Source: Geobacteraceae bacterium (lineage in GTDB: Bacteria; Desulfobacterota; Desulfuromonadia; Desulfuromonadales; BM103). From it: 42,641 bases of DNA. The notes beneath the pieces are model-generated. The model saw nothing but the letters and a program-made list of their open reading frames with translations, searched no databases and was not told the origin of the DNA. The stretch covers positions 1 to 42,641 of the forward strand of contig JAHEDT010000025.1 in assembly GCA_024641085.1 (NCBI GenBank), given 5' to 3'. Positions 13,997 to 29,241 of the stretch are shown here, one piece after another. The position numbers and the translations under genes are program-made. How positions within the stretch are numbered: the first letter of the stretch is position 1; every line of letters starts with the position of its first letter.

Positions 13997-14005
13997 TGCT
14001 ATAGT
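13997..14005 (+). promoter_or_regulatory. Extended -10 promoter for riboswitch A and the REC-PilZ gene
   Basis: TGC-TATAGT at 13997-14005. A start of transcription near 14012 would place the GEMM aptamer at the 5' end of the leader. No clear -35 box at normal spacing (TTAAGA lies 20 bases upstream). The stretch 13884-13996 holds a short inverted repeat (CATGCAG 13888-13894 / CTGCATG 13904-13910) and an A-run, and no gene. Confidence 0.45.
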
Positions 14006-14014
14006 TCATATCAA

Positions 14015-14115
14015 GCATCGTATCTCACCGATAATAGCAAACCCGGGGAAACCCGGGGACGCAAAGCCACGGGTCCGCTGCAGCAGAGCAGAGCGGATCG
14101 CCGGGCTGCCGAAGC
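14015..14115 (+). ncRNA. GEMM-I cyclic-dinucleotide riboswitch A
   Basis: Core elements of the GEMM-I (cyclic-di-GMP-I) aptamer are present in order: GCAAACC (14037-14043); a perfect CCCGGG stem closed by a GAAA tetraloop (42-57); GGACGCAAAGCC (57-68); a second stem TCCGCT/AGCGGA (74-79 with 92-97); and GCCGGGCTGCCGAAGC (14100-14115). By alignment to the Vc2 aptamer, recalled from memory, the base at Vc2 position 20 is A (14036). Known c-di-GMP aptamers have G there, while the GEMM-Ib type that senses 3',3'-cGAMP in Geobacter has A. The ligand is therefore uncertain, with cGAMP favoured. It controls the REC-PilZ gene through the terminator at 14137. Confidence 0.88.
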
Positions 14116-14136
14116 GGGGTAGGCCAAGCAGGACAG

Positions 14137-14169
14137 ACCCGTCTCCGCAATCGCGAGCCGGGTTTTTTT
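14137..14169 (+). terminator. Riboswitch A expression-platform terminator
   Basis: ACCCG (14137-14141) pairs with CGGGT (14159-14163), with further pairs CTC/GAG and CGC/GCG inside, followed by seven T. The 5' arm GACCCGT (14136-14142) is also the exact complement of ACGGGTC (14069-14075) in the aptamer. A folded, ligand-bound aptamer would thus release the arm and allow termination: an OFF switch by this reading. Confidence 0.75.
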
Positions 14170-14192
14170 GGTTCTGGACTTCAGGAGTTTTT

Positions 14193-14945
14193 ATGGATGA
14201 ACGGCCGATTGCAGTGGTGGTTGACGAGAGTAAACCTTTTCTCATGTACCTCTCGAAATTACTCAACCGCATGGGCCTCCAGGTCCTGCCGGTCAGTCAT
14301 GCCGGTGAAGCGCTCGAGATTTGTCGGGTGACCCGTCCGCATCTCGTGACCATGGATATGAGGATGCCCGATATGGACGGACTGGAGGCCCTGCGGATCA
14401 TACGTGAAGATCAGGACCTTGCCGATCTGCCGGTGATCATGATCTCCAGTTACCAGGAGAAGAGCCGGCAGTGGGAGGCCTTGAGCCTCGACTGCATCGA
14501 TGTGCTCGAAAAACCGGTTGATCTACGGCGACTGCACAAGGCGATTCAGCGCTGCAACCTTTATCCCGGCGGGCGGCGCCGTTACCTGCGGGCACCCTTC
14601 TACAAGACGGTTGGCCTGCATCACCAGGAGACCCGCTATGAAGTGACGAGCAGCAACCTTTCCGAGCGGGGGATCTTCCTGCAACTGGGCGAGCAACTGC
14701 CGAAAGGCGCTCACGTCGATGTCGACCTTCCGCTCTCCACGGATGCAAACTTGCGAGTTGGTGGCTCGGTGATTTATTCCAGGGTCGATGATCAAGATGG
14801 CACGGGAATCTCGTCCGGTACCGCAATCAAGTTCGATCGCCTGACTCTTCAGCACCTGGAAATTATCTCTGCTTTGGTTGCCGAACTGCTGATCGGTGAC
14901 ATCGTCGCCGAGCAGACCGAGCCGGTTGTCAGTCCGAACCGCTGA
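14193..14945 (+). CDS. Response regulator with receiver and PilZ domains
   Basis: 250 residues with AGGAG five bases before the ATG. The receiver domain (about 5-120) has Asp55 as phospho-acceptor in TMDMRMPDMDG, an acidic pair at 11-12, and the conserved Lys107 in EKPVD. A PilZ domain follows (about 126-235) with the c-di-GMP site RRRYLR (RxxxR, 129-133) and NLSERG (155-160, the D/NxSxxG motif). Such proteins couple phosphorylation to c-di-GMP binding, often in motility or surface behaviour. Its message carries GEMM riboswitch A, so both its expression and its activity depend on cyclic dinucleotides. No cognate kinase is adjacent. Confidence 0.92.
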   Translation: MDERPIAVVVDESKPFLMYLSKLLNRMGLQVLPVSHAGEALEICRVTRPHLVTMDMRMPDMDGLEALRIIREDQDLADLPVIMISSYQEKSRQWEALSLDCIDVLEKPVDLRRLHKAIQRCNLYPGGRRRYLRAPFYKTVGLHHQETRYEVTSSNLSERGIFLQLGEQLPKGAHVDVDLPLSTDANLRVGGSVIYSRVDDQDGTGISSGTAIKFDRLTLQHLEIISALVAELLIGDIVAEQTEPVVSPNR

Positions 14946-15082
14946 GCGCCCCGTTCCTGTTCTCTGGTCAGGTTTGGGCTGTATTTCGAGATGTTTTCAG
15001 ATATCCTTTGATTGATTCACATGCGTGCTGGGCAGTGCGTTGAAAAACCTCTTCCTGGCTGACCATCTTTCGAGAGGCTTGC

Positions 15083-16087
15083 ATGCAGAATTCAACCTGG
15101 ACCCCGCCTGAACTGTTGAAAATGTCCGGCAGCTACTGGGAAGCCTGTGCCCTGCATGCCGGTGTCAAACTTGACCTGTTTACGCCCCTGGCGAAAACTC
15201 CGGCGACGGCGGCTGAGCTGGCCGGACGGCTTGGTCTCGACTCGCGGGGCCTGGCCATGCTGCTCGACGCACTGGCCGCCCTGGAACTGCTGACCAAGGA
15301 GGGTGCGCGTTACCAGGCCACGCCTTTTGCGGCCCAGTTCCTTGCTGTCGATTCGGCCGCCTACCTCGGCCACATCATTCAGCATCATCATCACCTGGTC
15401 GACAGCTGGGCCCGCCTGGATCAGGCTGTTCGCACCGGCGAGCCGAGCCGGCGGCGGGTTTCGCACGATTCCGAGGAGATCGAAAGGGAGAGTTTCCTGC
15501 TCGGCATGTTCAACCTGGCGATGCTCCTGGCGCCGCGGGTTGTCAGGCAGATCGATCTGTCCGATCGCAAGCGCCTGCTCGATCTCGGCGGTGGGCCGGG
15601 TACTTACGCCATCCATTTCTGCCAGCAGAACCCGGATCTGCGCGCCACTGTTTTCGATCTGCCGACCACCCGGCCGATTGCCGAAAAAACGATCGGCAGG
15701 TTCAGCCTGCAGGAGCGCATCAAATTCGTCGCCGGTGACTTCCAGGCGGACACCTTGTGCGGCAGCTACGATGTCGCGTGGCTCTCCCACGTACTGCACG
15801 GCGAGGGTGAGGCGGAATGCGCCAGGATGCTGAAGAAAGCGACCGGTGTCCTCGAACCGGGCGGGGTGCTGCTGGTCCAGGAATTCATCCTCGAAGACAG
15901 CCGCGACCGGCCGCTCTTTCCGGCGTTGTTCTCCCTGAACATGCTGCTCGGGACTCCGCAGGGCAAAGCCTACAGTACGGGCGAACTCAAGGCTCTGTTG
16001 ACAACCGCCGGCCTGGAACAGATCGAACGGCTGCCGATGGACCTGCCCAACGGCGCCGGAGTGATCGGCGGCCGCAAACCCGGTTAG
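15083..16087 (+). CDS. SAM-dependent O-methyltransferase (acetylserotonin/hydroxyneurosporene type)
   Basis: 334 residues, starting MQNSTWTPPE with GAGAGG five bases upstream. The N-terminal half (about 10-100) is a winged-helix dimerisation domain of plant-type O-methyltransferases (LAGRLGLDSRGLAMLLDAL). The C-terminal half is a Rossmann methyltransferase with the SAM motif LLDLGGGPGTYA (about residue 170) and VLEPGGVLLVQEF. A His-rich stretch (HIIQHHHHLV, about 93-102) lies between. Family members methylate hydroxyl groups of small aromatic or isoprenoid compounds; the substrate is unknown. It appears to be a single-gene unit between the two riboswitch-controlled genes. Confidence 0.82.
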   Translation: MQNSTWTPPELLKMSGSYWEACALHAGVKLDLFTPLAKTPATAAELAGRLGLDSRGLAMLLDALAALELLTKEGARYQATPFAAQFLAVDSAAYLGHIIQHHHHLVDSWARLDQAVRTGEPSRRRVSHDSEEIERESFLLGMFNLAMLLAPRVVRQIDLSDRKRLLDLGGGPGTYAIHFCQQNPDLRATVFDLPTTRPIAEKTIGRFSLQERIKFVAGDFQADTLCGSYDVAWLSHVLHGEGEAECARMLKKATGVLEPGGVLLVQEFILEDSRDRPLFPALFSLNMLLGTPQGKAYSTGELKALLTTAGLEQIERLPMDLPNGAGVIGGRKPG

Positions 16088-16315
16088 CAGCTCTACCCCA
16101 AGCCCTCCCATCCGCTTGCAGCGACGCTAATCATTATCGAGGGGATTCCGGTGCTCCAGACCGTTTTGTTGCCGCCCTCTGCAGTGAAACACCTTCCCCG
16201 ACGACCACGCCCTCATCTTGGCCAACACCTGATCTACCAACTTAGATCATCTTCTGGGCCGGAGATGGGGGTTTTTGTCGAAGCGTTGAAGTTTCTGTAA
16301 TTCCTTGGAAATATC
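16088..16315 (+). other. Intergenic stretch before the giant-gene promoter
   Basis: No gene seen. CATCTTC (16248-16254) and GGAGATG (16261-16267) can form a seven-pair hairpin (one wobble) followed by GGGG and five T, a possible weak terminator for the methyltransferase gene. The rest is unremarkable. Confidence 0.35.
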
Positions 16316-16343
16316 TTGACATGCCTATATCGAGACATATATT
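16316..16343 (+). promoter_or_regulatory. Sigma70 promoter of the giant autotransporter gene
   Basis: TTGACA (16316-16321), 16-base spacer, TATATT (16338-16343). The predicted start near 16350 lies about 16 bases before riboswitch B, so the aptamer would be the first structure of the message. The leader before the start codon is then about 350 bases. Confidence 0.7.
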
Positions 16344-16365
16344 TTGAATTATTAATTAAACTCTC

Positions 16366-16507
16366 TAATTAATGGCCAAACCTCGGGCGACCGGGGGGCG
16401 GAAAGCCAGCGGGACTGGGTGTTATGTAAGTATTGATGGGCCTTTTTTATCGGTCTGCAGCAATCTAATCTAATCAGTAATCATCAGTCAGCCGGGTTGC
16501 CGATTGT
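16366..16507 (+). ncRNA. GEMM-I cyclic-di-GMP-type riboswitch B with an enlarged stem loop
   Basis: Core elements: GGCCAAACC (16374-16382); a CGG/CCG stem capped by the GNRA tetraloop GCGA (84-93); GGGGCGGAAAGCC (to 16407); CGGGACTG (16410-16417) with its partner CAGTC (16485-16489); and GCCGGGTTGCCGATTG (16491-16506). TAAT before the core pairs with ATTG after it (stem P1). Relative to aptamer A the base pair next to the ligand site is flipped (G14037-C14062 in A, C16376-G16401 in B), a compensatory change. The position equivalent to Vc2 G20 is G (16375), so c-di-GMP is the likely ligand. The 67 bases 16418-16484 are an unusual insertion in the second stem. Confidence 0.8.
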
Positions 16508-16542
16508 CTCCAACGTATGGAGGCGCGTGCAACCCGGTTTTT
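16492..16542 (+). terminator. Riboswitch B expression-platform terminator
   Basis: CCGGGTTGC (16492-16500) pairs perfectly with GCAACCCGG (16529-16537), followed by TTTTT; CTCC/GGAG forms an inner stem. The 5' arm is the 3' strand of the aptamer itself. Ligand binding would therefore sequester it and prevent termination: an ON switch by this reading, opposite to riboswitch A. Confidence 0.8.
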
Positions 16543-16698
16543 AATTTTCAGGGTGCTGATGGTCCTGCGATAAACTATGACCCTAAAAATAAATCTTTAC
16601 GGAGATCCAGACCGGTAAAGAGTTCGGAAGTGTCGGTTGCGGTGACCAGGTGATTAGGTTTCCGATATGATAAATATGTTCATTGGGAGGCAATGGCC

Positions 16699-19600
16699 AT
16701 GAAATCAAAACGAGCATCAGGTTTTGTTCTTGCGACGATGTTATGTCTGGTGATTCTGGAGAACTCTGCACATGCTGCGCCACCAAGCATAAATTCGCAG
16801 ATTGGCGATACGGTCATAAACCCTCTCATAGAACCGTCAGATCCACCTACTGATCCCCCTAATAATGAAGCTTTTGTAACCGGCTTGAATTTGGAAGATA
16901 ATTTTCCCGACACTAGTGTTCTGCCTTACCCCCAGTTTGTTTTTACAAATCAATCTATACCTGAAACAGAGGGAGAAACATTTGAGTATTCGTTTATGGT
17001 TAGGGATGTCGGGGATGTCCTCTATCAATATTTTGACGGTAAATTATATACTAGCGAAATATTATCCATTACCTCGGATCCAGCCAAACCATATGAAAGT
17101 CCTATATTTACAGTAACTGATAGCGGCTTAACCGGTTTCAGCCTTGTAAATCAAGAGATCAAGGCTTGGGATACATATAGTGAATGGTTAAAGGTTTTTG
17201 CTCCCTGGGCTGGAGGTGATGGTGCTGAGCTAGATCCAGTGATTTCAGGTGGGGTAGATGGTGTTAGCTATGTGAAGTATGGCGCTCCGGGGGCTGGCGG
17301 AAGCACTGGTTTTTTACTGATTCCTGCAGGTTCAGGCAAGCCAGGTAAGCCAGGTCCAGATATCGTATTTGATACAAATATTCTTCCTCTGGACGCGAAT
17401 CCGCAACCATTTCCAAAGTCTATCACTGCAACGAATAAAGTTGGATTAAAGGTCGGTAGTGTTGGCGGAAACGGCGGAAACGGAGGTTCTGTTTATCTGT
17501 CTCCGTTCAGTGGAGCGAAGGGTGGAAACGCCGGCAAAGGAGGAGATGTGACTGTCATTGTTCAGGCAGATGTTGAGCAAATTGCGACAACGTCTGAATC
17601 TGAAAAGGGTCTGCACGGAATCTTTGCCTTTAGTCGAAGCGGTGCGGGAGGCAAGGGAGGTTCCGGATATGCTGCGGTTGGAGGTGGATCTGGTGGAGGC
17701 TCCCCAAATGGAGGAGACGTAACTATTAAGAACAGTGCGTTACTTGTTAGTACTGATAGTGAATATGGCTATGGCATTTACGCCCTCAGTGTCAGCGGTC
17801 AGGGAGGTAGTGGCGGAGATCAATATGGCATTGCAGGTTATTCAGGCAGCGGAGCTGCTCCAGCAAATGGCGGTGATGTAAAAATCGAAAACTACGGCCA
17901 AGTTGTTACAAGAAAAGAATATAGCTATGGAATTCTTGCGCAGAGCATTGGTGGCGGGGGAGGCTCATCCGGTAGTACAGGAAACCTCATTTACTCAGAC
18001 ACTGCTAATGGTCAGGCTGGTGGTGATGGAGGGAAAGCTTCGGTAATCAATGCTGGCAGAGTTTCAACTCAAGCGGACTATTCACAGGGAATTGCAGCAC
18101 AAAGCATTGGTGGGGGCGGAGGTAATTCGGGCAGTTCGTGGGGCCTGGTTGCCATTGGAGGAACTGCAGACAACGGGGGCCGGGGTGATACCGTTTCGGT
18201 GGAAAATACTTTAACAGGATCAGTGCAAACTCGCGGGAAAGGTTCGATCGGGATATTTGCCCAGTCCGTGGGCGGCAGCGGCGGCAGGGGCGGTGATGCC
18301 ACCGGACTTGCAGCCATTGGTGGCAACGGAGCCGTAGGTGGTGGAGGTGGGAGAGTTGATGTAACAAATGCCGGCGAGATCAAAACATTTGGTGATACAT
18401 CACGGGGCATTTTTGCCGAAAGCGTCGGCGGTGGCGGCGGCAGCGGTGGCAGTTCGGTCGGGATGGTGGCCGTTGGCGGGACTGGTGCAGGTGGCGGTGA
18501 CGGGAATAATGTTTCTGTAGTGAATAGTGGAACAATCACAACTGCCGGAGATTACTCAGAAGGCATCTATGCTCAATCCGTAGGCGGCGGCGGCGGTGAC
18601 GGAGGAACGTCCACGGCGGTCGGTGCATTTTTAGCTGTTGCTGTTGGCGGTGATGGAGCCACCGGTGGAAAAGGTGGCGAAGTTGACATTATCCTGGGGG
18701 GAGAATCTCCATCAATTATAAAAACAGGTGCTGACGAAGATGGGGGCTATAAATCGGTTGGTGTTTTCGCCCAGTCCGTTGGCGGCGGTGGTGGCAGCGG
18801 TGGTGGTGCGTTATCCGTGTCAGCCGGTCTCTTCGGATCGGTCTCCGTTTCTCTTGGCGGCAAAGGGGCTAAGGGTGGAGATGGGGGCCTCGTCAACTTG
18901 ACCACTCCTGAGAATTCCCAAAATACCATAGTAAGCACCAAAGGCAACGATTCGACAGGGGTTTACCTCCAGAGCGTCGGAGGTGGCGGCGGTGATGGTG
19001 GTTACGCCTACTCTTTTGCTGCTGCCGCAGGGCCGGTTTCCGGAACGGTGAACGTTGGTATCGGCGGCAGGGGCGGCAAAGGCGGCGAAGGTGGAGTCGT
19101 CACTGTTGGGAGCGGTTTTGCTGCGGATCCAACGATTGATGATGTCCCAATTTCCCCGACCAGCGGTTTTAGAGGAGCGATTTATACCGATGGGGAACGA
19201 TCCACGGGGCTGTTTGCCCAGAGCGTCGGGGGCGGTGGCGGCAATGGGGGCCTTGCCATCTCGGCAGGCATCTCGGCGTCCGCCGGCGGCTCGCTAGGTG
19301 TTAGCGTGGGCCTGGGCGGCGACGGCGGCGCCGCTGGGAATGGTGGTGTGGTCAAGGTTGCTACGGAAGGTGATATAACGACGAACCAAGCCCAGTCCAC
19401 GGCTCTGCTGGTCCAATCGGTCGGTGGTGGTGGAGGCAATGGCGGTGGAACCGTTACGGCTGGTGTGTCGGCATCGGGAGGAGCTGCCGCGACCATCAAT
19501 GTCGGTGGTGGGGGTGAGGGCGCTGCGGGCGGCGATGGTGGAGAAGTCACTTTGGTTACGGGGGATGGCAATATTCTCACTAAGGGTATCCGTGCGCCCG

Positions 19601-22600
19601 ATCCGGAATTAGATCCTGACCTCGATGCAGAACTGCTGTCCCGAATTACTGGTGGCCAGTCTCCGGGGATCATCGTGCAGTCGATTGGTGGCGGAGGTGG
19701 TAATGGCGGTTATGCGGTCGCTGCAGGTATTGCTGGTGCAGGGGGGGCTGCCGGAGCGGTAACCGTGAGCCTCGGCGGTGGCGGGGGGTCGGGTGGTGAC
19801 GGCGGGAAAGTCTTTGCACAGTTGGCATCGAATGTCACAACGGAAGGCGATAGTTCCGCTGCCATCCTTGTTCAGTCGGTTGGCGGCGGTGGCGGCAACG
19901 GCGGTTTTAGTGTCAGTGCCGCGGGTGCCGGGGCCGGAGGTGGAGCAGGGGCTATTGCCGTTGGCCTTGGTGGTTCCGGCGCCGAAGGTGGTGTCGGCGG
20001 TGAGGTTATTGCTACATCTTCAGGCGAAATTATCACCAAAGGCACCCAATCTACAGGTTTCACTGCCCAGTCCATTGGTGGTGGTGGTGGTAATGGCGGT
20101 TTCAATGTGTCGGGTGGGCTGTCTGGCGCGGGCACCGGCAGTGGCGCGATCAGTGTCGGACTCGGCGGCGATGGCGGAGCGGGCAACGATGCGGGCAACG
20201 TGATCGCTGAAACCACAGGGAAAATTATGACCTTTGGTGCGCAGTCAACCGGTGTGCTTGCACAGTCTGTCGGTGGCGGTGGTGGTAACGGCGGATACAA
20301 TATCTCAGCCGCCGGTTCAGCTGCCGGAACGGGTAGCGGTGCAGTTTCGGTGGGGCTCGGCGGCAGCGGTAAGGGAGGCGGCAATGGCGGTGACGTTGAT
20401 CTAACCGTCAGTGAAACAGTATACACCGAAAGAGAGCAATCTGTTGCGGTCATCGCGCAATCCATCGGCGGTGGCGGCGGCAATGGCGGCTACAACATTT
20501 CCGCGGTGGCTTCAGGCGCCGGTACCGGAAGTGGCACGGTCGGTGTCGGGCTCGGTGGCTCCGGTGCGGGCGGCGGCGATGGGGGAGAGGTTGTCGTCTC
20601 GACCAGCAGCAACATTTGGACCAAGGGGGTCGGCTCGGGTGGTATTCTGGCGCAATCTGTGGGGGGCGGCGGCGGCAACGGCGGCTTTAATGTCACGGTA
20701 TCGGGCTCGGGGGCAGGAACGGGCAGCGGTGCGGTGGGTGTCGGCCTCGGTGGCAGCGGCGAAGGTGGCGGCAATGCTTCGACGGTTGATCTGACGGTTG
20801 AGAACAATGTCACGACCACGCTCAGGGACTCTTCCGGGATCGTTGCACAATCGATCGGTGGTGGCGGCGGCAGCGGTGGGTTCAATGTCACCGTCGCGGG
20901 TTCCGGTGCGGGCACGGGCAGCGGCGCGGTGAGTGTTGGCCTTGGAGGAAGCGCGGGTACGGGTGGTTTTGCCCGTGCAGTCACTTCAAAAGTTACGGGC
21001 AATATTGTAACCGGCGGTGATGACTCAACCGGTCTGCTGGTGCAGTCGGTCGGAGGTGGTGGTGGAAATGGCGGTTTCTCCGTGAGCGCGGCAATCTCTG
21101 GTGCCGGCACGGGAAGCGCCAGTGCCGCGGTCGGCCTGGGTGGCTCGGGTGGCTCTGGCGGGATTTCCGGTACGGTGGAATCAACGCTGACTGGAGATGT
21201 GAGAACTGCTGGTAAAAATGCCACCGCGGTGATTGCACAATCGATCGGCGGGGGTGGCGGCAAAGGTGGCATGTCGGTTGCCGGTGCGATTTCCGGTGCC
21301 AAAACAGGCAGTGCTGCGGCCTCTGTGAGCGTCGGCGGCTCCGGCGGCGGTGGCGGTGACTCGAATACGGTGGAGAATACGGTGACGGGGCATATCGTCA
21401 CGGCAGAGTCCGGGTCCGGAGGGATTCTGGCGCAAAGCGTCGGCGGTGGCGGTGGCGAAGGCGGCATTTCTGTCAGCGGCACAATCTCAGTGGCCAGTAC
21501 CGGAACCGGTGCCGTGAGTGTCGGGATCGGCGGCTCCGGAGGTGACGGTGGCGATTCGATGAAGGTTACGAATGCGGTAACCGGGACCGTGTTCACGTCG
21601 GGCCCCGATGCTTCCGGTATCGTCGCGCAATCCCTTGGTGGTGGCGGTGGCAACGGCGGCATCAATGTCACGGGCACGATTAGCGCCGCCAAAACCGGAG
21701 CGGGTGCCATAGGCGTCGGCATCGGTGGTTCAGGCGGTGGCGGCGGCGACTCAGGCGAGGTGGACAATACTGTCGAAGGCTACGTGCAGACGACAGGCGA
21801 CAATTCAGCAGGAATCTTCGCCCAATCCCTTGGCGGCGGCGGTGGCAATGGCGGCCTGAATGTGACCGGCATGATTACCGCGGCGAAAACGGGTAGCGGT
21901 GGCCTCGCGGTAGGCATAGGTGGTTTCGGTGGCGATGGTGGTGATGCCGGAAAAGTGACGAACAAGGTGACCGGCGGCACGGTGACGACCGGCAACAATG
22001 CCGATGGCATCGTGGCGCAAAGTCTTGGTGGCGGTGGCGGCAATGGAGCGATCAACGTAACGGCTTCGGTGAACCTTTCAAAGGATAACGGAGGTACCCT
22101 TGGTGTTGGAATCGGCGGTTTCGGAGGTGATGGCGGCAATGCGGGTGATGTCATCAGCACAGTGATCACCACCGAGGAATATCAACAGATCGGTACGACC
22201 GGAGACGATTCTTCCGCAGTGATTGCCCAGTCCATCGGTGGCGGAGGTGGCAACGGCGGCTTGAATATAACCGGGACTGTGAATGCTTCCGGTAAAAACG
22301 GCGCCGCCATCGGCGTGGGGGTCGGTGGTTTTGGCGGCGGTGCAGGGGATGCCGGTGATGTGACGCTCGGTGTGACCGGCACGGTCGTTACCGAGGGCAA
22401 CAATTCCCATGGCCTGATTGCTCAGTCGATAGGTGGCGGCGGCGGGAATGGCGGGACCAATGTCACGGGCTCCCTGGCCATAGTAAAACCGGCTTCGGGT
22501 TCTTCTGGGACGACCGTCGCGGCATCGATCGGGGTCGGTGGCTTCGGTGGCGGTGGCGGTCAGGCCGGCGATGTGGACCTGACTTATGCCGGAACGATCG

Positions 22601-25600
22601 TTGCCCAGCCTCGGATTCTGGTCCCGGAAACAGTTGACCCGGTTTCCGGCGCGACTGTGCCCGTGCATTATGAGTTCAAGGAGGGCAGCGGCTCCTACGG
22701 GATTCTTGCGCAGTCCCTCGGCGGTGGTGGCGGTAACGGCGGCGTCAATGTCAGCGCAGGCATTTCGTATGCGGCGGGCGAGAGTGACGGTCATGCTCTG
22801 CTCGTCGGCGTGGGTGGCTTCGGCGGGAGCGGTGGCGATGCGGGTGATGTCAGTGTCACCGTAACCGGTGGTGAGAGTATTTCTGCCTACGGCAACGGTC
22901 ATTCCGCCATCATGGCGCAAAGCACTGGCGGCGGGGGCGGTAATGGCGCCCTGAACGTCAGCGGCGGCATCGTGTCCGATTCGCCCCTTATCGTTGGTGT
23001 CGGGGGAATGGGCGGCAACGGCGGCACCGCCGGCGATGTCAGCGTTGCTGCGGCGACCGATGTCTATGCCATTGCGGAAACCGATGACGACGAACACTCG
23101 GCCGGGATCATGGCCCAGAGCCTCGGTGGCGGCGGCGGCAACGGCGGTGTGAATATCAGCGGCGGCCTGTCGATTGATAAAGGCAAGTCACCTTCGATTA
23201 CGGTCGGGGTCGGCGGATTCGGCGGTTCGGGCGCGGTCAGTGGGGATGTGGAACTGGTCCACGACGGTAACGCCATCACGACCGGTGGCTGGACCCACGG
23301 TCTTTTTGCCCAAAGCATCGCCGGCGGCGGTGGCAACGGCGGGCTCAACGTGAGTGGCCAGTTTAACTGGGCCGACTCGGAGGATTCCGGCGGGGCCAAA
23401 GACCTGAGTATCGTCGCCGGGATTGGCGGTCACGGTGGTCAAGGAGCCGATGCAGGTGATGTCGGCGTCATTTCTACCGGCACCATCAGCACCAGCGGCG
23501 CTTACTCCCGTGGCATCTACGCTCAGAGCGTCGGCGGTGGCGGCGGCACTGGCGGCATGAACGTGACCGGGGTCTTTGCCAAGAACAGTTCTCCCATCAG
23601 CATGGGGATCGGTGGCTTCGGCTCAGGCGGCGGCAACGCCGGTACGGTTCAAGTCAACCGCGGCAGTGTCGACCTTGCTGCCGGAAAGATCACGACTGAC
23701 GGAGTCGGCGCAATCGGCATCGAAGCCTCCAGCATCGGCGGCGGCGGTGGTGACGCCGGGATGAACTTTGTCGTCGGCATCAGCCTGGCCAAGGACAGCA
23801 ATAATGATGGTGGCGATACCGGCGGCGACACTGGTACGACCAGGGAACATCCCAAGCATACCGGGGTGGATGAGAGTGTCTTTACCAATTTCGACAAGGT
23901 TCTCGACGAGCTCGAAGGGCGGTCCCCTAAAGATCCGCAGGACGAAAAAGATGCCAGCAAGGACTCTCCTTTCGCGGCACAAATAGCCATCGGTGGTTCC
24001 GCGGGTGATGCCGGGCACGGTAACACGGCGAGCGTTGACAATCATGGCGATGTTGAAACCCGTGGCAACGACAGCCACGGCATTCTCGCCCAGTCCATCG
24101 GCGGCGGCGGTGGCAATGCCAGCGTGAACCTGGCGGTCACCTATCAAGGCAAAAGCGATGACAGCAAGGGCTTCAATTTCACCCTTGGTGGCGCGACCGG
24201 TGACGGCGGCAATGGTGCCAAGGTCGAGCTCGATAGCGACGGCATCGTCGTGACCGGAGGTGACGATGCCTACGGCCTCTTTGCGCAAAGCGTCGGCGGT
24301 GGCGGCGGTAATGTCGGCTATGATTTCAGCACCATGCAAACCAAAGGCGGCAAGATCGGCATCAACCTTGGCCGCCAGGGTGGCACCGGCGGATTCGGTG
24401 ACGATGTCACATTAACCAGCAAAGGCGCCGTCAGTACCCTCGGCGCCCGCTCGTATGGCATCCTGGCACAGAGCGTCGGCAATGGCGGTGGCAACAGTTC
24501 CTCCACCACGATCAGCGGCGAGCTCGCTGCTAACGAAGAAGATGGCACTCCCAACCGGGCGGCCAGTATCACGATCGGCCTCGAAGGCGGCGAGGGCGGC
24601 AGTGCCGGTGATGTCGATGTCGATGTCGCAGGGACGGTGACCACCATAGGTGAGGGTGCACATGCAGTCTTCGCCCAAAGCGTCGGCGGCGGCGGCGGTA
24701 ATGCCGGCGATGCCAAAAGCAAGGCGTCTACCCTGGCGGTTTCAATCGGCGCCAGTGGCGGCATTGGCGGTACCGGTGGCAAGGTGGAGGTGACCAGCAG
24801 CGCAGGAATATTCACCCGGGGTCAGGATGCCCTTGGTATTTTGGCTCAGTCGATCGGTGGCGGTGGCGGCACCGGCAGCACGACCGAATCGAAGGCAGAA
24901 GATTTTGCCATCGCTATCGGCGGTTCCGGTGGCGAGGGTGCCGTCAGCGACACGGTGGCGGTGATAAATCGCGGCACCATAATCACTGAAGGGGCTGGCT
25001 CGTATGGTGTCCTGGCGCAGAGCATCGCAGGTGGTGGCGGCAATGCCAAAGCGACCAAAAGCACCCTCGAGAAAAAGAAACCCAAGGAGAATACAACCGG
25101 CGATAGCAGCACGGCCCCGACTGACTCGGCCGATGGCGACAAAGAAGAGTCCAACTCCGCCGTTCAGGTTTCGATTGCCATCGGTGGCACAGGAGGGACC
25201 GGTGCGGCAAGTGGCGATGTCACGGTGGAAAACTTCGGTGGCATCGGCACCAGTGGCGACCAGGCTATCGGGATCTTCGCTCAGAGTATCGGCGGCGGCG
25301 GCGGGAATGCGGCACAAACCGCCAGCTCTGTGACCTCGGAACTTGGCTCAGGGCTCCTCTTCGGGCTTGGCATCGGAGGCAACGGCGGCACTGGTGGCGC
25401 CGCGGGCGATGTGACCGTGTCCAATCTGGTTGATTCCGGCACCGATCAAGCGGGCCAGATCATAACTCTCGGCAACGAATCCCATGGAATCTTCGCCATG
25501 AGTATTGGCGGCGGCGGCGGAAACGGCAGTAGCGTGACCGCGAAAACCAACGCGAAAAACCAAAATGAGAAGAGTGCGGCAAGTGCTTTCTCCGTCGGCA

Positions 25601-28600
25601 TCGGCGGCTCCGGTGGTACCGGGGGTACCGGTGGTGAGGTGACGGTGACCAACGCCGGCATGATTGCAACCTATGGCACCAAGGCTCACGGCATCGTGGC
25701 GCAAAGCATCGGCGGCGGCGGGGGCAACGGCGGGATGACTATTGCCGGAAACCAGGCCATGGGCAGCCGCGAGGCCGGCAGCAAGGCCGGCAGCTTTGCC
25801 CTTGGCGGAAGCGGCGGCGACGGCAATGCCTCCGGTGATGTCTCCGTGATCAACACGGGCTCCATCGAGGTCTTCGGCGACCAGTCCTACGGTATTTACG
25901 CGCAGTCCGTTGGCGGCGGCGGGGGGGATGGTGCTTTGGCCATCGGCCTTTCTGCCGACATCGCGAGCAATCCGTTGACCAATCTTGCTCCCACCCTGAT
26001 GAACATCGGCATCGGTGGCAGCGGCGGTGACGGTGGCGACAGTGGCAACGTTTTCATCGATCAACAAGGCTCGATCATTGCCCACGGCGACAACGCCTAT
26101 GGCATCTATGCTCAGTCCGTCGGTGGCGGGGGCGGCCGGGTTGGCGCTTCGATTTCCTCCCCGGTCTGGATGGCTGCCGATTTGACGATTTCCGCCCTGG
26201 TGGGCGGTCGTGATGGCAGCGATGGCAATGCTGGCACGGTGACGATTAACACGGTCGGCGATATCACGACGACGGGCTCCAACAGCCAGGCGTACTTCGC
26301 CCAGGCCGTGAATGGCGGCGGTGGTGATCTCCAGCTGTTCCTCGACGTGAGTGACAAGGGCGGCGCCTATGGCGAAGACAGTGTCGACCTTGAGGAAGAA
26401 CTCGGTTTTATCGAACAAATCAAAGCCAAGGTAACCGTGGAGTTAGGGCTGGGCTCAAGTGAAGCCTCTGGTGCGTCCGGCAGCGAGATTCAATCCAGTC
26501 ATCAAGGAGATGTGTTTACCGCAGGCGATCAGTCAGTCGCCTCCAGTACACAATCCGTTGGCGGTGGCGGCGGTAACGCCACTGTTGCCCTGGTGGTCAA
26601 CGACGAGGCGCAGGTTGATCTCGGATTCCTTCTCGGTGCGTCCGAATCGAGCGACAGCAGCGGCGGTGATGTCGACCTGACCAGAGACGGGGATGTCGTC
26701 ACGACCGGCGATCAGTCCCAGGGCGCCGGTGTTCAATCGATCGGTGGTGGTGGGGGCAACCTGAGCGTAAACGTCCGTAAAGTACCTGTACAAGAGGATC
26801 CGGCAGAGGTGATGGCCGCGGTCACTCCTGCCTCTCTCGCACCAATGGTGAGCCCCAGGCCTCAGGATTTGGTGCCTGCTGGCGAAGTCACTGCATCGGT
26901 GATGCTGGGCTCCGATTTAAGCGACAACAACGATGGTGGCGATGTGACCCTTGCCACGACCGGCGACCTGCTTACCTCGGGGACGCTTTCCCCGGGGGTC
27001 GTCATTCAAAGCATCGGCGGGGGGGGCGGCCAGTTGAACCTGACCGGCCTCGACAGCCTGGCCATCAGTATGGGGGCCAGCGGCGGCTCTTCCGGTGATG
27101 GCGGCAATATTGTTGTGGCCAACGATGGGACCGTCTTGACCGAAGGCGAATTGTCTCACGGGATCATGATCCAATCCATCGGCGGCGGTGGTGGTGCGGT
27201 ATTCACCGACTTGGAGGAAAGCGCCATCAACCTTACCCTCAACACGGACAACAGCGGCTCCGGCGGCAGTATTGACCTCTCTCAAACCGGCGATGTGGTC
27301 GTGACTGGAGATCGTTCCATCGCAGTTTTTGCCCAGAGCCTGGGTGGTGGCGGCGGGGCCGTGGATCGCCTGTTTGCCGATACCTCCGGCGGCGCCGGCA
27401 TGGCCGGGTCCGTCAACCTCACACTGGATGGCAACGTCCTGGCCGAAGGGCAGGATGGTGTTGCCGTATTTGCCCAATCCCGCGGGACTGACGGCCAGGG
27501 TGATATCAACATCAGCCTGGCAGAGGATAAGCTGGCCTACGCCGGTGCCAATGGTGTGGGCGTCTGGATGTCAGGTGGTGCCAATAACAGTTTCACCAAT
27601 CGAGGGGTCGTCATGACTGCAGACGGGATTCTGGGTCGGGCTACCATTGGCGAGGAAGGCAATGACCAGATCGATAATCATGGGACCTTCTACGGCCAGT
27701 TCGATCTCGGTTACGGAATGAACAGAGTTGTGAACCATGTGGACAGTCTATTGGTCCCCGGGGCCGTGCTGCGGCTTGGCGCCGCGAACAACCAACTGGT
27801 CAACGACGGCATCATGATCCCCGGTGACATGTTCTATGCACAGCATACGGATCTGACTGGCAGTTTCAGTCAGTCAGCGACCGGCATGACCTATTCTGAA
27901 CTCGATTTCGGCAGCGATATCCTGGATCAGATTTATATGACCGGGACTGCCGATCTGGCTGGCGAGATGGACGTTGCGCTGCTCAACCCGCAGCTCGTTC
28001 CCTCCGGACACTATCAAAAGGATCTCTTCCATGCGGAGCTGGGGCTCACGGATAGCGGGATGTTTTTGACGACTGCGCCCTCCGTGGTCATCAATTACGA
28101 GCTTCTCTACCCCACGGGTCATGCTGCCGTGTTGGATTACAACGTCGACTTCTCTCCAAAGGGTATGAGCAAAAACCTCACGGAGGTCGGAGATTATTTC
28201 AACCGGATTCAATCTGCAGGGAGTTCGCCCGCACTGGCCGATACCGTGATCAAGCTGCTCTACGACCCGACGATGAATGACTACCGCGCATCTCTGTCGC
28301 AACTGTCTCCGGAGTTTTATGGAGAGGATCAGGCCGACTTGATCCACAGCAGCCAGCAGTTCGGGCGAACCATGGCCAATGGCGGCGGATACCGCTTTGG
28401 TGATAAAGACCAGGTGATCTGGCTGCAGTTTGACAGGGAGAACAATACCCACAGTGACTCCGGTGATTACAAATCGGTCGATCATGACGCCGACAGGTAT
28501 ACCCTGGGTTTCGACAAGCGCCTGGATAGCCGGTGGGCGCTCGGGCTGAGCGTTGCCTATGAGGATACCGAGTCCGATGGCTATGGTGGTCGCTGGAGTT

Positions 28601-29241
28601 CGTCCGGCCAGACCGGGCATGTTGGTGCTTCGCTCAAACACCAGTCAGGGAATACGCAAATTGCCTTGTTCCAGTCCTACAGCTGGAGTGACACGGACAT
28701 CGAGCGTATCGTCCAGGTCACCGAACCCCTTAGAGCAAAGGCCCGCCGGCACCAGGATGCCTATGGCGGCATGCTGCGCCTGTCGCATGACCTGCACCAG
28801 GAGAGCATCTATCTGCGACCGCTGCTCGATCTTGGGGTCACTTATCTGATGGTGGAATCAACGGATGAAAAAGGGGCCGGTGGGGCGAGCCTGGAGCTCG
28901 AGTCCTACAACGAAACTCATACGTGGGTTCGGCCTGCCCTCGGCATGGGATATAAGCACAGCTTAAATGCGGGAATTGACATGCACCTGCATGCCAACCT
29001 GGGTTTCCAGTATTACTTAAGCGATTCTGAAACCGAGGTCCACGCCGGTTTTGCTGGTGCTCCCGCGGGTGTTGACACCATGAACGTCCCGGTGGAACTC
29101 GGCCAGTCCTATGCCGATGGTGCGGTTGGGGTCGACCTGAAGATCAACAAGCAGGTCAATGTGGGATTCCAATACAGCACGATCTTTGACAAAGACCATG
29201 ACCTTGATCGCTATAGCGTCAATTTGACTATCCCCTTCTGA
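16699..29241 (+). CDS. Giant glycine-repeat autotransporter (type Va secretion), about 4,180 residues
   Basis: The ATG at 16699 is chosen because GGGAGG (16685-16690) lies 8 bases upstream; the ATG at 16693 is too close. A Sec signal (MKSKRASGFVLATM, cleavage near AHA/APPS) leads. Residues about 30-250 are non-repetitive and AT-rich in DNA. From about 250 to 3600 there are roughly 50 units of 50-90 residues built on the pattern GI-hydrophobic-AQS(I/V/L)GGGGGNGG, then a small-residue stretch with VGxGGxGGxGG, then TxGxxS. This suggests a long beta-helix passenger. A linker follows, then a C-terminal beta-barrel (about 3890-4180) ending in Phe (RYSVNLTIPF), as outer-membrane proteins do. Probable adhesin or biofilm surface fibre; the function is inferred. 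Expression is gated by riboswitch B. Confidence 0.9.
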   Translation: MKSKRASGFVLATMLCLVILENSAHAAPPSINSQIGDTVINPLIEPSDPPTDPPNNEAFVTGLNLEDNFPDTSVLPYPQFVFTNQSIPETEGETFEYSFMVRDVGDVLYQYFDGKLYTSEILSITSDPAKPYESPIFTVTDSGLTGFSLVNQEIKAWDTYSEWLKVFAPWAGGDGAELDPVISGGVDGVSYVKYGAPGAGGSTGFLLIPAGSGKPGKPGPDIVFDTNILPLDANPQPFPKSITATNKVGLKVGSVGGNGGNGGSVYLSPFSGAKGGNAGKGGDVTVIVQADVEQIATTSESEKGLHGIFAFSRSGAGGKGGSGYAAVGGGSGGGSPNGGDVTIKNSALLVSTDSEYGYGIYALSVSGQGGSGGDQYGIAGYSGSGAAPANGGDVKIENYGQVVTRKEYSYGILAQSIGGGGGSSGSTGNLIYSDTANGQAGGDGGKASVINAGRVSTQADYSQGIAAQSIGGGGGNSGSSWGLVAIGGTADNGGRGDTVSVENTLTGSVQTRGKGSIGIFAQSVGGSGGRGGDATGLAAIGGNGAVGGGGGRVDVTNAGEIKTFGDTSRGIFAESVGGGGGSGGSSVGMVAVGGTGAGGGDGNNVSVVNSGTITTAGDYSEGIYAQSVGGGGGDGGTSTAVGAFLAVAVGGDGATGGKGGEVDIILGGESPSIIKTGADEDGGYKSVGVFAQSVGGGGGSGGGALSVSAGLFGSVSVSLGGKGAKGGDGGLVNLTTPENSQNTIVSTKGNDSTGVYLQSVGGGGGDGGYAYSFAAAAGPVSGTVNVGIGGRGGKGGEGGVVTVGSGFAADPTIDDVPISPTSGFRGAIYTDGERSTGLFAQSVGGGGGNGGLAISAGISASAGGSLGVSVGLGGDGGAAGNGGVVKVATEGDITTNQAQSTALLVQSVGGGGGNGGGTVTAGVSASGGAAATINVGGGGEGAAGGDGGEVTLVTGDGNILTKGIRAPDPELDPDLDAELLSRITGGQSPGIIVQSIGGGGGNGGYAVAAGIAGAGGAAGAVTVSLGGGGGSGGDGGKVFAQLASNVTTEGDSSAAILVQSVGGGGGNGGFSVSAAGAGAGGGAGAIAVGLGGSGAEGGVGGEVIATSSGEIITKGTQSTGFTAQSIGGGGGNGGFNVSGGLSGAGTGSGAISVGLGGDGGAGNDAGNVIAETTGKIMTFGAQSTGVLAQSVGGGGGNGGYNISAAGSAAGTGSGAVSVGLGGSGKGGGNGGDVDLTVSETVYTEREQSVAVIAQSIGGGGGNGGYNISAVASGAGTGSGTVGVGLGGSGAGGGDGGEVVVSTSSNIWTKGVGSGGILAQSVGGGGGNGGFNVTVSGSGAGTGSGAVGVGLGGSGEGGGNASTVDLTVENNVTTTLRDSSGIVAQSIGGGGGSGGFNVTVAGSGAGTGSGAVSVGLGGSAGTGGFARAVTSKVTGNIVTGGDDSTGLLVQSVGGGGGNGGFSVSAAISGAGTGSASAAVGLGGSGGSGGISGTVESTLTGDVRTAGKNATAVIAQSIGGGGGKGGMSVAGAISGAKTGSAAASVSVGGSGGGGGDSNTVENTVTGHIVTAESGSGGILAQSVGGGGGEGGISVSGTISVASTGTGAVSVGIGGSGGDGGDSMKVTNAVTGTVFTSGPDASGIVAQSLGGGGGNGGINVTGTISAAKTGAGAIGVGIGGSGGGGGDSGEVDNTVEGYVQTTGDNSAGIFAQSLGGGGGNGGLNVTGMITAAKTGSGGLAVGIGGFGGDGGDAGKVTNKVTGGTVTTGNNADGIVAQSLGGGGGNGAINVTASVNLSKDNGGTLGVGIGGFGGDGGNAGDVISTVITTEEYQQIGTTGDDSSAVIAQSIGGGGGNGGLNITGTVNASGKNGAAIGVGVGGFGGGAGDAGDVTLGVTGTVVTEGNNSHGLIAQSIGGGGGNGGTNVTGSLAIVKPASGSSGTTVAASIGVGGFGGGGGQAGDVDLTYAGTIVAQPRILVPETVDPVSGATVPVHYEFKEGSGSYGILAQSLGGGGGNGGVNVSAGISYAAGESDGHALLVGVGGFGGSGGDAGDVSVTVTGGESISAYGNGHSAIMAQSTGGGGGNGALNVSGGIVSDSPLIVGVGGMGGNGGTAGDVSVAAATDVYAIAETDDDEHSAGIMAQSLGGGGGNGGVNISGGLSIDKGKSPSITVGVGGFGGSGAVSGDVELVHDGNAITTGGWTHGLFAQSIAGGGGNGGLNVSGQFNWADSEDSGGAKDLSIVAGIGGHGGQGADAGDVGVISTGTISTSGAYSRGIYAQSVGGGGGTGGMNVTGVFAKNSSPISMGIGGFGSGGGNAGTVQVNRGSVDLAAGKITTDGVGAIGIEASSIGGGGGDAGMNFVVGISLAKDSNNDGGDTGGDTGTTREHPKHTGVDESVFTNFDKVLDELEGRSPKDPQDEKDASKDSPFAAQIAIGGSAGDAGHGNTASVDNHGDVETRGNDSHGILAQSIGGGGGNASVNLAVTYQGKSDDSKGFNFTLGGATGDGGNGAKVELDSDGIVVTGGDDAYGLFAQSVGGGGGNVGYDFSTMQTKGGKIGINLGRQGGTGGFGDDVTLTSKGAVSTLGARSYGILAQSVGNGGGNSSSTTISGELAANEEDGTPNRAASITIGLEGGEGGSAGDVDVDVAGTVTTIGEGAHAVFAQSVGGGGGNAGDAKSKASTLAVSIGASGGIGGTGGKVEVTSSAGIFTRGQDALGILAQSIGGGGGTGSTTESKAEDFAIAIGGSGGEGAVSDTVAVINRGTIITEGAGSYGVLAQSIAGGGGNAKATKSTLEKKKPKENTTGDSSTAPTDSADGDKEESNSAVQVSIAIGGTGGTGAASGDVTVENFGGIGTSGDQAIGIFAQSIGGGGGNAAQTASSVTSELGSGLLFGLGIGGNGGTGGAAGDVTVSNLVDSGTDQAGQIITLGNESHGIFAMSIGGGGGNGSSVTAKTNAKNQNEKSAASAFSVGIGGSGGTGGTGGEVTVTNAGMIATYGTKAHGIVAQSIGGGGGNGGMTIAGNQAMGSREAGSKAGSFALGGSGGDGNASGDVSVINTGSIEVFGDQSYGIYAQSVGGGGGDGALAIGLSADIASNPLTNLAPTLMNIGIGGSGGDGGDSGNVFIDQQGSIIAHGDNAYGIYAQSVGGGGGRVGASISSPVWMAADLTISALVGGRDGSDGNAGTVTINTVGDITTTGSNSQAYFAQAVNGGGGDLQLFLDVSDKGGAYGEDSVDLEEELGFIEQIKAKVTVELGLGSSEASGASGSEIQSSHQGDVFTAGDQSVASSTQSVGGGGGNATVALVVNDEAQVDLGFLLGASESSDSSGGDVDLTRDGDVVTTGDQSQGAGVQSIGGGGGNLSVNVRKVPVQEDPAEVMAAVTPASLAPMVSPRPQDLVPAGEVTASVMLGSDLSDNNDGGDVTLATTGDLLTSGTLSPGVVIQSIGGGGGQLNLTGLDSLAISMGASGGSSGDGGNIVVANDGTVLTEGELSHGIMIQSIGGGGGAVFTDLEESAINLTLNTDNSGSGGSIDLSQTGDVVVTGDRSIAVFAQSLGGGGGAVDRLFADTSGGAGMAGSVNLTLDGNVLAEGQDGVAVFAQSRGTDGQGDINISLAEDKLAYAGANGVGVWMSGGANNSFTNRGVVMTADGILGRATIGEEGNDQIDNHGTFYGQFDLGYGMNRVVNHVDSLLVPGAVLRLGAANNQLVNDGIMIPGDMFYAQHTDLTGSFSQSATGMTYSELDFGSDILDQIYMTGTADLAGEMDVALLNPQLVPSGHYQKDLFHAELGLTDSGMFLTTAPSVVINYELLYPTGHAAVLDYNVDFSPKGMSKNLTEVGDYFNRIQSAGSSPALADTVIKLLYDPTMNDYRASLSQLSPEFYGEDQADLIHSSQQFGRTMANGGGYRFGDKDQVIWLQFDRENNTHSDSGDYKSVDHDADRYTLGFDKRLDSRWALGLSVAYEDTESDGYGGRWSSSGQTGHVGASLKHQSGNTQIALFQSYSWSDTDIERIVQVTEPLRAKARRHQDAYGGMLRLSHDLHQESIYLRPLLDLGVTYLMVESTDEKGAGGASLELESYNETHTWVRPALGMGYKHSLNAGIDMHLHANLGFQYYLSDSETEVHAGFAGAPAGVDTMNVPVELGQSYADGAVGVDLKINKQVNVGFQYSTIFDKDHDLDRYSVNLTIPF
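17611..27490 (+). repeat. About 50 coding repeats with the AQS-GGGGG signature
   Basis: I counted about 50 units with the core (A/V)QS(I/V/L)GGGGG, or degenerate forms at the two ends (for example AFSRSGAGG at the start and AQSRGTDGQ at the end). Mean spacing is about 200 bases. The central units (about 19.9-23.3 kb) are the most uniform. Several units carry non-repeat inserts. The DNA of each core is a run of GGN codons. Confidence 0.9.
28386..29238 (+). other. Autotransporter beta-barrel domain coding region
   Basis: Alternating hydrophobic/polar strands with aromatic girdle residues (QVIWLQFDRENN, YTLGFDKRLDSRWALG, IALFQSYSWSDTD, VNVGFQYSTIFDKD) over about 285 residues, ending in an aromatic Phe. 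This matches the PF03797-type translocator in length and position. Confidence 0.85.

Follow-up and report, generated by a model that had tools for sequence, protein, structure and literature searches.

We propose that the window, by which we mean the whole 42,641-nucleotide stretch analysed here (contig JAHEDT010000025.1 of the Geobacteraceae bacterium assembly GCA_024641085.1), carries two independent transcriptional riboswitches of the GEMM-I class, 2.3 kb apart on the same strand and of opposite apparent logic, a model that we consider probable given the folding, comparative and architectural observations set out below. Riboswitch A (14021-14169), upstream of a response regulator-PilZ (RR-PilZ) gene, would be an OFF switch of the Cd1 kind, probably answering to 3',3'-cyclic GMP-AMP (cGAMP), and riboswitch B (16365-16545), upstream of the gene for a 4182-residue autotransporter, would be an ON switch of the pilM kind answering to cyclic di-GMP (c-di-GMP). 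The elements on which the argument rests are as follows.

14021 to 14026, plus strand: 5' strand TATCTC of the outer P1 helix of A, pairing with GGGGTA at 14116-14121
14027 to 14114, plus strand: aptamer of riboswitch A (GEMM-I, RF03167), with A14036 as position 20 and G14037-C14062 as pair 21-46
14109 to 14121, plus strand: P1 3' side strand of A, CCGAAGCGGGGTA, which by the partition function can pair instead with the 5' arm of the terminator, as an antiterminator
14136 to 14169, plus strand: intrinsic terminator of A, with 5' arm 14136-14148, 3' arm 14155-14164 and T run 14163-14169
14193 to 14945, plus strand: RR-PilZ gene, 250 residues (PF00072, PF07238)
16365 to 16504, plus strand: aptamer of riboswitch B (GEMM-I), its P3 enlarged by a long insertion; position 20 is G16375 and pair 21-46 is C16376-G16401
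16492 to 16545, plus strand: terminator of B, with its 5' arm (16492-16500) within the aptamer and its 3' arm at 16529-16537
16693 to 29241, plus strand: gene of the Gly-rich autotransporter, 4182 residues, recognised by a signal-peptide-like start (by eye), a C-terminal beta-domain and its composition

Both aptamers clear their Rfam cut-offs, A with 67.2 bits for RF03167 (cut-off 59) as well as 71.4 bits for RF01051, and B with 50.4 bits for RF01051 (cut-off 35), so that the two GEMM-I riboswitches of the original prediction pass the covariance scan, and the arms it quoted, ACGGGTC (14069-14075), GACCCGT (14136-14142) and CCGGGTTGC (16492-16500), lie where it had placed them. For riboswitch A, the best reading is an OFF switch acting on transcription. 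Its terminator (-14.0 kcal/mol) starts at 14136 and is separate from the aptamer, which ends at 14114, as in the Cd1 design. The same leader precedes the same RR-PilZ gene in eight genomes (this one and G001, G005, G015, G016, G017, G018 and G021), and in an alignment of the eight leaders aptamer and terminator together have 96.9% of cells paired, with changes on both sides in 7 of 41 pairs and none of 500 shuffles scoring as high; within the terminator alone, 3 of the 10 stem pairs have changed on both sides. The outer P1 helix plus one further outer pair is paired in 94.6% of cells, with no both-side changes, and the P1 3' strand reads CCGAAG[AC]GGGGTA throughout, with an extra A in one leader. 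In transcripts ending before the terminator 3' arm, the partition function pairs the 5' arm with this strand in seven of the eight leaders (about 6-11 expected pairs), and in full-length transcripts the terminator has more expected pairs than the antiterminator, again in seven of eight, G017 being mixed (6.2 versus 3.3). In the absence of ligand, the P1 3' strand would thus pair with the oncoming terminator 5' arm and the RR-PilZ gene would be read; when ligand is bound, P1 would retain its 3' strand, allowing the terminator to form and turning the gene off.

The antiterminator of A had originally been sought elsewhere, in the 5' strand of P3, where ACGGGTC is an exact 7-base complement of GACCCGT in the terminator arm and, across the eight orthologs, 83.9% of cells are pairable as against 79.2% for the P1-based pairing. 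This pairing nevertheless never exceeds 0.13 expected pairs in the eight leaders, whatever the length tested, would require a stable P3 to open, and has no pair changed on both sides; nor does the exact complement carry much meaning, since shuffled 5' arms match the aptamer over 7 bases in 366 of 5000 trials (7%). We have rejected it as the main pairing on the strength of the partition function, the shuffles and the orthologs, and regard it as very unlikely; the P1-based antiterminator is favoured in silico, its support being energetic and comparative.

Riboswitch B appears to be built differently, and here the claim that the terminator 5' arm is the aptamer's own 3' strand holds, as CCGGGTTGC (16492-16500) lies inside the aptamer and forms nine perfect pairs with GCAACCCGG (16529-16537). 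The terminator is very stable (-31.5 kcal/mol for 16491-16545), and the terminator-constrained ensemble (-69.6 kcal/mol) lies below one aptamer-like fold (-55.9 kcal/mol); therefore ligand would have to act during RNA synthesis. Without ligand, the aptamer 3' strand would serve as the terminator 5' arm, and ligand caught by the nascent aptamer would prevent termination and turn the autotransporter gene on. Leader B begins with an AT-rich hairpin (16350-16374) that includes the 5' strand of P1 and could delay aptamer folding.

Several observations sit uneasily with these assignments. The pre-terminator transcript of G001 prefers to pair the terminator 5' arm with the P3 3' strand; in G005 the antiterminator is still dominant at full length; covariation in the P1-based antiterminator is slight (79.2% of cells are paired, with 123 of 500 shuffles scoring equally high); the terminator of A itself has a U/C mismatch where six of the eight leaders pair; and the P1 of B is weak, its 5' strand being able to form a local hairpin. 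An imperfect terminator that can coexist with its aptamer might also belong to a leader that does not switch at all, A terminating constitutively or independently of ligand, yet the complementarity between P1 3' strand and terminator arm recurs in the relatives of A and in the 63-68 similar leaders described below, and we consider this unlikely. The opposite logic foreseen for the two switches (A OFF, B ON) is supported in silico by folding, by the eight orthologs of leader A and by how those similar leaders are built.

Each design has a described counterpart. According to PMC9262584, aptamer and terminator folds of Cd1 coexist and the antiterminator takes the C that pairs with the ligand (OFF), whereas those of pilM are mutually exclusive (ON); mixed polarity among GEMM-I riboswitches is therefore already known. 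Like Cd1 of C. difficile, A combines a separate terminator, able to coexist with the aptamer, with a proposed antiterminator from the aptamer 3' end that contains the ligand-pairing C; unlike Cd1, which senses c-di-GMP and controls flagellar genes, it has A at position 20 (A20) and an RR-PilZ gene. Similarly, B shares with the pilM cGAMP riboswitch of G. metallireducens the doubling of the aptamer 3' strand as terminator arm and mutually exclusive folds; it differs in having G20 (the c-di-GMP type) and a long P3, and in preceding the gene of an autotransporter.

The architecture of A and B recurs in the order, where it goes with the pair 21-46 of the aptamer. The covariance model R1 was applied around most of the best-listed among 433 RF03167 matches (40 genomes), together with our own loci and the orthologs, and the 175 matches obtained, less 3 lacking the 5' end and 9 duplicates, left 163 aptamers from 34 genomes. 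Three terminator callers were used. The first allowed hairpins of up to 75 nucleotides and called A of the window itself ON; the second took the lowest energy among density-chosen hairpins and called A separate, at the wrong hairpin (one preceding a run of five T near the start codon); the third took the first T run with a hairpin (the first-terminator rule), which recovers the A terminator at 14136 and altered the chosen run in 15 of the 163 rows. With the second caller, aptamers with C21-G46, the pair of B, have a terminator overlapping the aptamer (ON-type) in 59 cases, a separate one in 3 and none in 9, and those with G21-C46, the pair of A, in 6, 68 and 17 cases, one aptamer being unreadable; under the first-terminator rule the counts are 59, 3 and 9 against 11, 63 and 17. 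The ON platform thus goes with C21-G46 in 59 of 62 callable aptamers, and the separate terminator with G21-C46 in 63 or 68 of 74, depending on the caller. Because the sequences are related, the Fisher values (1.4e-27 for the order) should not be read as probabilities. By eye, three of the six G21-C46 aptamers that the second caller placed as ON (L168, L244, L216) have in addition a separate hairpin further on, L073 resembles a loop miscall, L122 looks real and L233 is undecided; the counts are left uncorrected. Both kinds of aptamer occur in 24 of the 34 genomes (second caller).

The complementarity that we read as the signature of an OFF switch is common to the separate-terminator leaders. 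In the 68 such G21-C46 leaders of the second caller, of which 8 are A and its orthologs and in which the row of window A rests on the wrong hairpin, P1 3' strand and terminator arm pair with a mean of -15.6 kcal/mol, as against -13.6 with swapped partners (a value as low arising in none of 10000 permutations) and -8.6 with shuffled sequences. The 63 leaders of the first-terminator rule give -15.3, -13.2 (0 of 10000) and -8.4 kcal/mol, with window A at -14.8. The simplest reading of these patterns would be two old GEMM-I aptamer lineages, each with its own platform. For the targets of 23 OFF and 18 ON leaders, taken as first open reading frames, we claim no functional split; six of the OFF targets are the RR-PilZ gene, and the rest of both sets look largely exported by eye. 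We found no statement of a link between pair 21-46 and polarity in the literature searched, which beyond the cited papers comprised titles and abstracts.

The regularity has limits. A wider set, 77 aptamers drawn from another 34 genomes in the phylum, gives, as overlapping, separate and none, 23, 5 and 8 for C21-G46 and 2, 18 and 21 for G21-C46 with the second caller, and 23, 5 and 8 and 4, 16 and 21 under the first-terminator rule. Three genomes of the same class account for 14 overlapping and no separate terminators with C21-G46 versus 0 and 10 with G21-C46; outside the class the rule is weak (9 and 5 versus 2 and 8). All five C21-G46 exceptions of the phylum set have A-U-closed P2 tetraloops, and the three of the order have C-G-closed P2 loops; because the exceptions differ in loop closure, neither pair 21-46 nor the closing pair of the P2 loop is a perfect predictor. 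Among G21-C46 aptamers of the order, A-U-closed P2 loops go with a separate terminator in 40 cases, an overlapping one in 5 and none in 10, and C-G-closed loops occur in 7 G21-C46 aptamers of the order and 16 of the phylum. In a gammaproteobacterial order (placed by its centre, an uncultured Shewanella) there is no sign of the rule among 52 aptamers, matched in 31 loci and 20 stretches, and terminators are rare: of 48 with G21-C46, 9 are ON, 8 separate and 31 lack a terminator, as do all 4 with C21-G46.

As to the ligands, A is the only one of nine GEMM-I aptamers in the genome with A20, B and the other seven having G20. Position 20 presumably corresponds to A14 of the cGAMP riboswitch. Among the eight orthologs of A, position 20 is A in the genome itself, G001, G015, G016 and G017 and G in G005, G018 and G021, and on the protein tree, which joins G018 to G015 (97/94) and G005 to G021 (100/100) with three forks open, it has changed at least twice by parsimony. 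At positions 20-22 A, a natural sequence, resembles the Vc2 mutant G20A (4YB1), which binds cGAMP. PMC6274999 works with 4YB1, the structure of a GEMM-I aptamer carrying G20A together with cGAMP, and lists A14 as one of the bases through which the cGAMP riboswitch contacts its ligand. PMC9262584 reports that the position-20 base steers selectivity and does not abolish binding.

Eleven GGDEF matches are found in the genome. Two of these, both full-length, have Ser (GHxxGS) where seven others have Asp; L029 has GS in a shorter, divergent match, and L028 yielded no motif. The two serine proteins are as follows.

L026, 892 to 1986 (contig C107): GGDEF protein with the Hypr serine, GHLVGS
L027, 601 to 2001 (contig C26): GGDEF protein with the Hypr serine, GHLVGS

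Their best PDB match is 6D9M, a fusion of endolysin and receiver-type cyclase, which is presumably the Hypr GGDEF domain of GacA from G. metallireducens, fused to lysozyme, that an eLife paper describes; L027 also carries a receiver domain, by its PDB matches. The genome thus encodes, by sequence, Hypr GGDEF proteins of predicted activity, and of the aptamer bases that mark GEMM-Ib, A20 is present in A (A14036) and absent from B (G16375), while C21-U22 with G46 is absent from A, which has G21-C22 with C46. Aptamers with A20-C21-U22, presumably the described GEMM-Ib type, number 15 in G082, G120 and G155. G120 and G155 (L290, L294, L278, L304) each have both an A20-C21-U22 GEMM-I of ON type and an A20-G21-C22 one with a separate terminator. 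Like the Geobacter GEMM-Ib riboswitches described in PMC6456294 and PMC8835794, A has A20 and occurs in a genome that encodes GacA-like GGDEF proteins; it differs from them in its OFF platform and in G21-C22 as against C21-U22 of the 15 aptamers. Deletion of gacA in G. sulfurreducens is reported to lower transcription of all GEMM-Ib-controlled genes, as for ON switches.

Probably, then, A responds to cGAMP, perhaps to c-di-GMP too, and B to c-di-GMP. That one signal serves both switches, as originally suggested, is doubtful because A has A20 and B G20 at the position steering cGAMP versus c-di-GMP, and the two Hypr-serine GGDEF proteins add to the doubt; A20 alone being compatible with c-di-GMP binding, A and B may still share a signal in part. 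A stricter form, in which opposite polarity is kept, both aptamers answer to c-di-GMP and A20 merely loosens the selectivity of A, draws on the otherwise G21-C46 pocket of A, on its three G20 orthologs and on the steering role of position 20 already mentioned, and it has to accommodate A as the sole A20 of nine aptamers, A20 in five of eight orthologs, G20 orthologs that are not one clade, and the two Hypr-serine proteins. We treat it as a serious contender that nonetheless falls short of an even chance. Cutting likewise against a cGAMP switch at A, its lower P2 pair G21-C46 is unlike that of the 15 A20-C21-U22 aptamers, which makes its selectivity uncertain, and the three genomes with a G20 leader carry both Hypr-serine proteins too. 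A GacA-like protein occurs in seven of the eight leader-A genomes and the second Hypr type in all eight, with the serine in all; in G016 (71% complete) the GacA-like protein was not found and the second type has a stop codon inside the match. Across these eight genomes, A20 and the presence of Hypr-type proteins show no link.

Each switch on its own follows a known design, and what may be new is that an OFF switch with A20 controls a PilZ gene, together with the link between subtype and polarity. The PilZ part of the RR-PilZ protein reads RRYLR and NLSERG, which fit the c-di-GMP-binding motifs RxxxR and [DN]xSxxG. Tentatively, and with clearly less than an even chance of being right, we suggest that A is a natural cGAMP OFF switch on the gene of a PilZ c-di-GMP receptor, adjoining a c-di-GMP ON switch that drives a giant autotransporter, and that class-wide there are two GEMM-I lineages in which pair 21-46 and the P2-loop closing pair foretell the direction of response. 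If so, A would connect the two cyclic dinucleotides directly, one of them muting the output of the other. The cGAMP riboswitches described in the cited sources behave as ON, and one that turned a PilZ gene off would mean that cGAMP lowers the capacity for c-di-GMP signalling. Should subtype predict ON or OFF within the lineage, regulons could be read from sequence and one could ask whether aptamer and platform are inherited as a unit, while a position 20 that varies among orthologs of one leader offers a natural series for riboswitch ligand change.

The surroundings bear on whether A and B belong together. The remaining features of the region are as follows.

13997 to 14005, plus strand: putative extended -10 of leader A, TGCTATAGT, seen by eye
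15083 to 16087, plus strand: O-methyltransferase-like gene (PF00891), which by translated similarity also follows the RR-PilZ gene in G001 and G016
16316 to 16343, plus strand: promoter-like TTGACA-16-TATATT of leader B, from a promoter scan (11 of 12 matches)

The proximity of A and B on one strand might suggest a module co-evolved on one pathway. Against this, A and the methyltransferase surroundings are conserved in G001 and G016, where leader A and the RR-PilZ gene are likewise found together with an NtrC-type regulator and the methyltransferase, and of the 39 other genomes searched, 38 lack a match to the first 436 residues of the autotransporter. The one match, in G018, covers residues 169-433, and its gene is preceded by a GEMM-I that has A20 and G21-C46 and whose terminator is separate as judged by eye, so that it looks like the opposite type to B. 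We consider such a module most improbable; because the surroundings of A are conserved and the protein N-terminus of B is matched in one genome of 39, an insertion has probably made neighbours of A and B, which would then be no conserved pair. The G018 riboswitch lies at L109:1852-1932 on the minus strand, its sign probably opposite to that of B.

The transcript of leader A is expected to start near 14012. The promoter scan did not return TGCTATAGT; TGTGCTAT is present in five of the eight orthologous leaders, and the other three differ by one base. CTCC in the terminator arm of A could pair with GGAG before the PilZ start codon (14143-14187; hairpin of -14.3 kcal/mol), so that a second, translational layer of control is conceivable. 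The autotransporter beta-domain (PF03797) scores 111.1 bits on the last 1513 residues of the 4182-residue protein, which has 1026 Gly and one Cys. A weak terminator-like hairpin (16247-16275) lies 3' of the methyltransferase gene. Clusters of GEMM-I aptamers occur elsewhere too, three consecutive ones inside 455 bases at L061:1320-1774 in G001, of the same genus, and three (1501-1593, 2345-2446 and 2620-2721) inside 1.3 kb at L086 in G030.

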